Source: Actinotalea caeni (GTDB lineage: Bacteria > Actinomycetota > Actinomycetes > Actinomycetales > Beutenbergiaceae). Taken from it: DNA of 64,000 bases. The DNA is taken from the NCBI RefSeq assembly GCF_009733795.1, contig NZ_WNXX01000016.1, forward strand, positions 1 to 64,000, written 5' to 3'. The position numbers were made by a program, and so were the translations under genes. The notes below the pieces were generated by a model that worked only from the letters and a program-made list of their open reading frames with translations, ran no database searches and was not told the origin of the DNA. Shown here piece after piece: positions 14,786 to 33,252 of this stretch (positions are counted from its first letter, which is position 1; every line of letters begins with the position of its first letter).

Positions 14786-14880
14786 TCGCGACCCGCGTCT
14801 GCCCACCTGCCCGCCATCCGGGACGTGGACCGTCTCGCGTGTCTCACGACCGGGACCGGGGGCAGAGGTGGGTTGAGAGC
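14786..14880. repeat. Intergenic repeat family A, one forward and one inverted unit
   Basis: A forward, degenerate unit (CGACCCGCGTCTGCCC) near 14786-14806 and an inverted unit (GGGGGCAGAGGTGGGTTGAG) at 14858-14877 flank about 50 bp. The arrangement is the same as at 33.1-33.25 kb. The element fills most of the gap between dacB and the DUF2342 gene. Confidence 0.65.
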
Positions 14881-31400: not shown

Positions 31401-31423
31401 CCGGCCGAGGAGCCCCACGAACG

Positions 31424-31461
31424 ACGAACGGGTCCGTGCCGATCGGCACGGACCCGTTCGT
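31424..31461. terminator. Bidirectional 17-bp hairpin between gpmA and murA-like gene
   Basis: ACGAACGGGTCCGTGCC pairs perfectly with GGCACGGACCCGTTCGT around a GATC loop. It serves both convergent genes, whose stops lie 23 and 10 nt away. Confidence 0.9.
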
Positions 31462-31471
31462 GTGCTCGGGC

Positions 31472-33022
31472 TCAGTCCCGGAAGGTCTCGATCTGGGCGC
31501 CCAGCGAGATCAACCGGTCGGCGAGGTGCTCGTAGCCGCGGGCGATGATGTCGACGCCGCGCAGCACGGAGGTCCCCTTCACGGCCAGCATGCCCAGCAG
31601 GATCACGACGGCGGGGCGCAGCGCGGGCGGGCAGCTCACCTCGGCGCCCGACCAGTGGGTGGGGCCGGTGACGTCGAGCCGGTGCGGGTCGAGCAGCCGC
31701 ACGTTCGCGCCGAGCCGGTTGAGGTCGGTCAGGTAGATCGCGCGGTTGTCGTACACCCAGTCGTGGATGAGGGTCGAGCCCGACGCGCACGCCGCGATGA
31801 CCGCGAAGAACGGCAGGTTGTCGATGTTGAGACCGGGGAACGGCATCGGGTGGATCTTGTCGATGGGGGCCCGCAGCTCGCTCGGGTGCACCGTGACGTC
31901 GACGAGCCGGGTGCGGCCGTTCGCGGAGGTGTACTCCTCGTTGATGTCGTAGCGCAGGCCCATCTCGGCGAGGGTCGCGATCTCGATCTCCATGAACTCG
32001 ATCGGGACCCGGCGGACCGTGATCTCCGAGCCGGTGACGATGCCGGCGGTGAGCAGGCTCATCGCCTCGACCGGGTCCTCGGCGAGCGTGTAGGTGACGT
32101 CGGCGTCGATGTGCTCGACGCCGTGGATGCGCAGCGTGGTGGTGCCGATGCCCTCGATGCGCACGCCGAGCAGCTCCAGGTAGTAGCAGAGCTCCTGGAC
32201 CATGTAGTTGGGCGAGGCGTTGCGCAGCGTGGTCACGCCGGGGTGGCGGGCCGCGGCCATGATCGCGTTCTCGGTGACGGTGTCGCCGCGCTCGGTGAGC
32301 ACGACGTTGAGGTCGCCGTCGCGGTCGCGCGAGACCGTCGCGCGGTAGGCGCCCTGGGTCGCGACGACGTCGAGCCCGAAGTGCCGCAGCGCGATCATGT
32401 GCGGCTCGACGGTGCGGGTGCCGAGGTCGCAGCCGCCCGCGTAGGGGATCGCGAAGGCGTCGAGGCGGCCGAGGAGCGGCCCGAGGAACATGATGATGCT
32501 GCGGGTGCGCGTCGCGGTGTCGACGTCGATCGCGTCGAGGTCGAGCGTGTCCGGGGTGATCAGCTCGAGGTCGCGGCCGTTGGTCGACCAGTGCGCCTCG
32601 ACGCCGATCGAGGTGAGGACGGCGACGATCCGCTCCACCTCGACGATGCGGGCGACGTTGCGCAGCACCGTGCGGCCGCGGTTGAGCAGGGCCGCGCACA
32701 GCAGCACGACCGCGCCGTTCTTCGAGGAGTTGACGTCGATGCTGCCCGACAGCTGGTGGCCGCCGGTGACGCGCAGGTGGGTCGGGCCCTTGGTGCCGAT
32801 CGTGACGAGGTCGGCGTTGAGGGCCGCGTTGATGCGGGTGAGCATCTCGACGGAGAGGTTCTGACCGCCGGCCTCGATCCGCGCGATCGCGCTCTGGCTG
32901 GTGCCCAGCAGGTCGGCCAGCTGCGCCTGGGTGACGCCCTTGGCCTGGCGGGTCGCCCGGATCAGCGCCCCGATCTCGGCGAGCGGGGCGTGGATGGTGT
33001 CCTCGAGTGCAGCTGTCGTCAT
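31472..33022 (-). CDS. XRE-type HTH domain fused to MurA-like enolpyruvyl transferase
   Basis: The 516-residue protein begins with about 70 residues of a Cro/CI (XRE) helix-turn-helix (LIRATRQAKGVTQAQLADLLGTSQSAIARIEAG). An EPSP/MurA two-domain fold follows. MurA makes UDP-GlcNAc-enolpyruvate, the first committed peptidoglycan precursor. The Lys-Asn of VNSSKNGAVVLL and the PEP-site Cys of AGGCDLGTRTVEPH are present. However, the segments matching the FPTD and TDLR motifs of MurA read PFPGLN and PALRPA, so two conserved aspartates seem lost. It may be a divergent or regulatory paralogue. ATG 33022 fits a leaderless promoter carrying a perfect palindrome, suggesting autoregulation. Confidence 0.9.
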   Translation of the reverse strand: MTTAALEDTIHAPLAEIGALIRATRQAKGVTQAQLADLLGTSQSAIARIEAGGQNLSVEMLTRINAALNADLVTIGTKGPTHLRVTGGHQLSGSIDVNSSKNGAVVLLCAALLNRGRTVLRNVARIVEVERIVAVLTSIGVEAHWSTNGRDLELITPDTLDLDAIDVDTATRTRSIIMFLGPLLGRLDAFAIPYAGGCDLGTRTVEPHMIALRHFGLDVVATQGAYRATVSRDRDGDLNVVLTERGDTVTENAIMAAARHPGVTTLRNASPNYMVQELCYYLELLGVRIEGIGTTTLRIHGVEHIDADVTYTLAEDPVEAMSLLTAGIVTGSEITVRRVPIEFMEIEIATLAEMGLRYDINEEYTSANGRTRLVDVTVHPSELRAPIDKIHPMPFPGLNIDNLPFFAVIAACASGSTLIHDWVYDNRAIYLTDLNRLGANVRLLDPHRLDVTGPTHWSGAEVSCPPALRPAVVILLGMLAVKGTSVLRGVDIIARGYEHLADRLISLGAQIETFRD

Positions 33023-33029
33023 GCCGGCC

Positions 33030-33057
33030 ATGCTATATCTCAGATCTGAGATGTCAC
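33030..33057 (-). promoter_or_regulatory. Leaderless promoter with 16-bp palindromic operator for HTH-murA
   Basis: On the minus strand GTGACA (33057-33052), a 16-nt spacer and TAGCAT (33035-33030) are followed after 7 nt by ATG 33022. The perfect palindrome ATCTCAGATCTGAGAT (33037-33052) fills the spacer almost exactly. Such a site suits a dimeric HTH repressor. Confidence 0.7.
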
Positions 33058-33093: not shown

Positions 33094-33252
33094 CGTTCAA
33101 CCCCACTTCTGCCCCCCGTGCCCACGGTGCGGGCGATCAGGCGGGTGGTGGCGTCCCGACCCGCGAGACGGAGGGCAGGAGTGGGTTGAAACCCGTTGAG
33201 GGGGCAGGTGTGGGTTGAAACCTGTCGAGGGGGCAGGAGTGGGTTGAGACCG
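33094..33252. repeat. Intergenic repeat family A, one forward and three inverted units
   Basis: A forward unit (GTTCAACCCCACTTCTGCCC, 33094-33113) is followed by about 56 bp and then three inverted units of GGGCAGGAGTGGGTTGAAAC type. Their shared GGGCAGG cores are 29 bp apart (C at 33176, 33205, 33234). The last unit touches the end of phoU. Confidence 0.85.

Follow-up and report, generated by a model that had tools for sequence, protein, structure and literature searches.

Described systems related to HTH-MurA

MurA catalyses the first step of cell-wall synthesis, ahead of the next enzyme, MurB; it commits carbon to the wall and is the target of fosfomycin. An XRE-type helix-turn-helix (HTH) similar to that of the protein described here, HTH-MurA, is found in C.BclI and C.AhdI, autoregulatory controller (C) proteins of restriction-modification systems that have a palindrome in their own promoter; however, these are small proteins without an enzyme domain. 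The nearest precedent for an XRE domain joined to an enzyme fold is BzdR (PMC3602430). In BzdR/BoxR the fold is shikimate-kinase-like and no longer active as an enzyme, and the protein controls other genes (PMC3602430), whereas in HTH-MurA catalysis seems to be retained and the site occurs only at its own gene.

A close described relative is Streptomyces MurA2 (SCO5998; sven5810/vnz_28735), which is apparently of the same family, the Streptomyces members showing ~69% identity. SCO5998 was likened to HTH-MurA by its neighbourhood and its Streptomyces relatives rather than by its own sequence: an aconitase gene lies divergently upstream of HTH-murA in three Streptomyces loci, matching the SCO5998/SCO5999 arrangement (PMC12161575). 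The murA2 gene is known as a second UDP-GlcNAc transferase gene and a target of BldM-WhiI (PMC4125116), has a SigB-dependent promoter (PMC8346170) and carries a predicted DmdR1 site (PMC12161575); overexpressing murA2 did not give the phenotype seen when whiI is overexpressed (PMC11005364). None of the Streptomyces loci we examined contained the SigB promoter sequence published for SCO5998. While murA2 is already known as a gene, we found no published report of an HTH or operator for murA2 or HTH-MurA in a literature search that covered mainly open-access papers.

Domain structure of HTH-MurA

The window, a 64,000-nucleotide stretch of Actinotalea caeni DNA (contig NZ_WNXX01000016.1), was initially annotated as encoding an XRE domain fused to a MurA-like body, and this domain structure was borne out by sequence and structure searches (Table 1). 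The HTH_3 domain scored 49 bits against a cut-off of 23, with core residues near-invariant across relatives, and PF00275 matched residues 85–504 (146 against a cut-off of 22.8). An AlphaFold2 model built from 21 HTH-MurA family sequences (mean pLDDT 82) had a full MurA fold, its residues 78–516 matching MurA crystal structures with a best Z of 45.4 (rmsd 2.2 Å over 415 residues), and Foldseek also matched the predicted fold to MurA structures. The ATG given in Table 1 was taken as the start because the spacing of the -10 element and operator is conserved among relatives.

Table 1. Coordinates of the HTH-murA gene, its protein domains and its promoter elements in the window
Feature	Position	Strand	Basis and remarks
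HTH-murA coding sequence	31472..33022	minus	516 aa; stop at 31472; ATG at 33022 is the probable leaderless start
MurA-like enolpyruvyl transferase body, residues 80-516	31475..32785	minus	PF00275, NF006873, predicted fold
XRE helix-turn-helix, PF01381 (HTH_3), residues 21-72	32807..32962	minus	E 6.4e-13
Probable -10, TAGCAT	33030..33035	minus	Sequence and conservation; family pattern TANNNT overlaps the right half of the operator
Operator, family consensus TATCTCA-N4-TGAGATA	33036..33053	none	Putative, by conservation; the perfect 16-bp palindrome is 33037-33052
-35 of the initial annotation, GTGACA	33052..33057	minus	Present in the window, unconserved among relatives

In comparison with canonical MurA (TIGR01072/NF006873), HTH-MurA shares the fold and residues K22, N23, R91, C115, R120, D305, R371 and R397 (E. 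coli numbering), but has an N-terminal HTH and its own operator, no D369, an altered 160–164 loop, and only about 26–31% identity. It clears the cut-off of NF006873, a broad model of the MurA subfamily (305.7 against 297 bits), and misses that of the murA equivalog TIGR01072 (291.7 against 392.7), as does every family member tested; P0002, the canonical MurA encoded in the window genome, scores 436.5 with TIGR01072 and passes NF006873 too.

There was no universally conserved neighbour of HTH-murA across the relatives' loci that we compared. In the window a 29-bp repeat (GGGCAGGAGTGGGTTGAAACCCGTCGAGG) is present in 2.7 tandem copies at 33173–33251, between phoU and the promoter, and again at 1193–1211 and 14858–14876; the genome contains about 105 copies of its core, frequently arranged as short, oppositely oriented arrays, against zero for the reversed control. 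A GC-rich long inverted repeat (ACGAACGGGTCCGTGCC/GGCACGGACCCGTTCGT) at about 31420–31460, between HTH-murA and a convergent gpmA-like gene, is probably a two-way terminator.

Conservation of the active site

Residues K22, N23, R91, C115, R120, H125, D231, D305, R331, R371 and R397 are invariant in 107/107 relatives. The initial annotation was thus right that the Lys-Asn and Cys motifs of MurA are kept (K22, N23 and C115), and right about one of the two Asp motifs it considered replaced: D369 is truly lost, with TDLR becoming CPPALR in all 107 relatives, while its alignment around D305 was three residues off. When properly aligned, FPGLNID lies against YPGFPTD, and D305 is therefore kept, as D401 of the window protein, and is invariant like the others. 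The diphosphate-binding loop (E. coli 160–164) reads ERGDT in 107/107 members, so that the family has two uniform changes, at D369 and in this loop, with the tested catalytic positions otherwise conserved. A candidate for the residue that stands in for D369 is E461, which is invariant. In E. coli, clinical isolates carrying MurA D369N evidently live and are less sensitive to fosfomycin (PMC4790336, PMC10352792); D369 is therefore not absolutely needed, and its loss alone does not equate to a dead enzyme.

In the view taken by the initial annotation the body is no longer catalytic and acts as a ligand-binding domain (compare the shikimate-kinase-like fold of BzdR), so that the protein would be a sensor of wall precursors with repression as its sole function. 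While the replacement of D369 and the diphosphate loop in all members, the scores below the murA equivalog cut-off, and the precedent of BzdR as an enzyme turned regulator (PMC3602430) speak for such a sensor, we consider it unlikely, as the catalytic residues apart from D369, including D305 and C115, are invariant and the gene content of the relatives, described below, argues for an enzyme.

Genomes with HTH-MurA as the only MurA

Of 398 Actinomycetota surveyed, 33 have a member of the HTH-MurA family, every one of them belonging to the same class as the window genome; in our tree the family forms one clade (support 100/100). A search of the window genome for a second, canonical murA, as the initial annotation had proposed, found one: the genome has three PF00275 proteins, namely AroA, canonical MurA and HTH-MurA, and here HTH-MurA probably gives extra or conditional capacity. 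Identity to the window proteins is alike for HTH-MurA and canonical MurA, at 81% and 82%, respectively, in G004, and 77% and 79% in Cellulosimicrobium arenosum.

A survey of 59 relatives identified genomes with AroA and HTH-MurA only (G006, G007, G009, G010, G011, G014, G017, G033 and G036), as well as a fragmented assembly (G053) where HTH-MurA was the only PF00275 protein. With the window's canonical MurA as query, only HTH-MurA was matched in these genomes and in Serinibacter arcticus, Micrococcales bacterium KH10 and Pseudoclavibacter caeni, i.e., canonical MurA was absent from the 13 genome entries tested, one of them a duplicate; the S. arcticus entry has the same coordinates as G014 and appears to duplicate it. 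PF00275 searches also identified AroA and HTH-MurA only in G226, G369, G417, G441, G270, G357 and a second Pseudoclavibacter. HTH-MurA is the sole MurA beside AroA in at least 19 distinct genomes from several families, including single-contig genomes (G006, G009, G226 and G417), and MurB was found in every sole-MurA genome tested for it. Judging from this absence of another gene, HTH-MurA would have to be the working MurA where it is the sole copy. As the sole-MurA members lie in several separate places in the tree, the canonical gene has probably been lost several times.

The gene content, together with the realigned D305 and the invariance of the tested residues other than D369, argues against a catalytically dead sensor. 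It also bears on a further possibility, that the body is an active transferase on another substrate (compare NikO, which uses UMP) and that an unrecognised enzyme makes UDP-MurNAc where canonical MurA is missing. The altered loop, which contacts the diphosphate in MurA, would fit such a change of substrate in all members; nevertheless NikO matches less well than MurA, PF00275 reveals no other candidate in the genomes without canonical MurA, and we know of no MurA-independent route to UDP-MurNAc, making this reading very unlikely.

HTH-murA is frameshifted in two sole-MurA assemblies (L200 in G055 and L201 in G017), likely as a result of sequencing error. Geodermatophilaceae were considered as possible sole-MurA genomes and rejected, as PF00275 and BLAST searches revealed a second, E. 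coli-type MurA. This protein (L181, L182, L184, L186 and L196; 44–47% identity to that of E. coli) takes the place of the usual actinobacterial MurA, which suggests replacement or transfer. Because a second MurA is retained in Geodermatophilaceae and in Streptomyces, absence does not force an enzyme role on HTH-MurA in these groups.

A conserved putative operator in the HTH-murA promoter

The perfect palindrome that the initial annotation described in the gene's own promoter is present and belongs to a conserved site, the operator of Table 1, found directly before the gene in 132/134 relatives with at most 4 of 14 mismatches. In relatives the last two operator bases are usually the start of a TANNNT -10 element, with the start codon mostly 10–12 nt 3' of the operator; in the window the -10 is shifted two bases relative to this family pattern. 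From the spacing of operator, -10 and start codon the promoter appears to be leaderless. Information is at background level on either side except at the operator and -10, and no -35 is conserved among the relatives. The proposed promoter (GTGACA, 16 nt, TAGCAT, 7 nt, ATG) reads in the window as described, but its GTGACA is not a conserved element.

We rejected the rarity of the palindrome as evidence in itself, since this GC-rich window has nine perfect 16-bp palindromes against 5.3 expected by chance. What goes beyond chance is this particular sequence, which has no other copy in its genome at ≤3 mismatches (a search that the initial annotation had also called for) and occupies the same place in 132/134 relatives. 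Among 39 relatives surveyed, a strict operator pattern occurs once per genome in 19, always at HTH-murA, and is absent from every relative without HTH-murA. A wider set that included Streptomyces and other families again had the operator at HTH-murA, two of the genomes each having a single further weak match. Phylogenetic footprinting thus supports the part of the initial annotation that had the protein controlling its own gene; no recurrent second operator was found across the genomes surveyed, and control therefore looks limited to that gene only. A repressor that targets its own gene alone would have no output, which counts further against the pure sensor; without a recurrent second target another output than regulation is needed, and this points to enzyme activity.

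Changes in HTH and operator

Two relatives support the prediction that this HTH binds this operator. G357 carries changes in the recognition region (T31S, S44G and I49V), and its operator has changed alike on both sides, to TAACTCA-TATA-TGAGTTA. In G055 the recognition helix has been rewritten and no operator was found, while the MurA body is kept; the frameshift of the gene in this assembly sits at a position where the sequencing may be in error. Here the enzyme part appears to have outlived the regulator part, which counts against the pure sensor. G004 is an exception, as its operator is gone and its HTH largely intact. This exception would be accommodated if the palindrome were the target of some other regulator, leaving the HTH with another role or none. 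We regard this as highly improbable given that the operator accompanies the gene from one genome to the next and changes when the HTH does, and that palindromic binding sites are common in the promoters of XRE proteins' own genes (PMC12565409). Dedicated autorepression by HTH-MurA thus appears well supported, because the site is conserved, occurs about once per genome, is absent without the gene and changes with the HTH.

Among genomes of the window's own family, the operator's right half has decayed (3–4 mismatches) in most of those with HTH-MurA as sole MurA and is intact in all but one of those with canonical MurA, as noted at L015, L022, L023, L024, L025, L026 and L040; the decayed half is perhaps a sign of relaxed repression. 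As a general mark of sole-MurA genomes operator decay was rejected, since it fails outside this family.

A predicted bifunctional enzyme and repressor

Our preferred reading, to which we assign a probability of roughly three in four, is that HTH-MurA is a bifunctional protein, an XRE domain with a working MurA, that represses its own gene. One polypeptide would combine the N-terminal XRE domain with an active UDP-GlcNAc enolpyruvyl transferase, a MurA paralogue. An HTH dimer would bind TATCTCA-N4-TGAGATA, a site overlapping both the spacer and the -10 of the probably leaderless promoter, and once bound would block RNA polymerase, the enzyme thereby limiting its own amount. Here we infer DNA binding, catalysis and, from the position of the operator, repression. 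The initial annotation is in this way partly confirmed in its observations and partly supported in its interpretation, the autoregulation standing and the dead sensor not. A broader proposal, in which a MurA family spread over several Actinomycetes orders catalyses without D369 and the state of its active site (substrate-bound or empty) gates operator binding, is tentative, and we think it possible rather than probable.

If the preferred reading is true, a MurA with its own repressor would be a naturally occurring intermediate on the way from enzyme to regulator, one that still has both functions; in the work on BzdR this step had to be made artificially, as a chimera (PMC3602430). The MurA reaction would also run without D369, the residue where changes in E. 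coli lower fosfomycin susceptibility. The Streptomyces family member, with the genetics available in that genus, makes the idea directly testable. Should the gating by substrate also be true, demand for wall precursor would set the transcription of the enzyme that makes it, all within one polypeptide.
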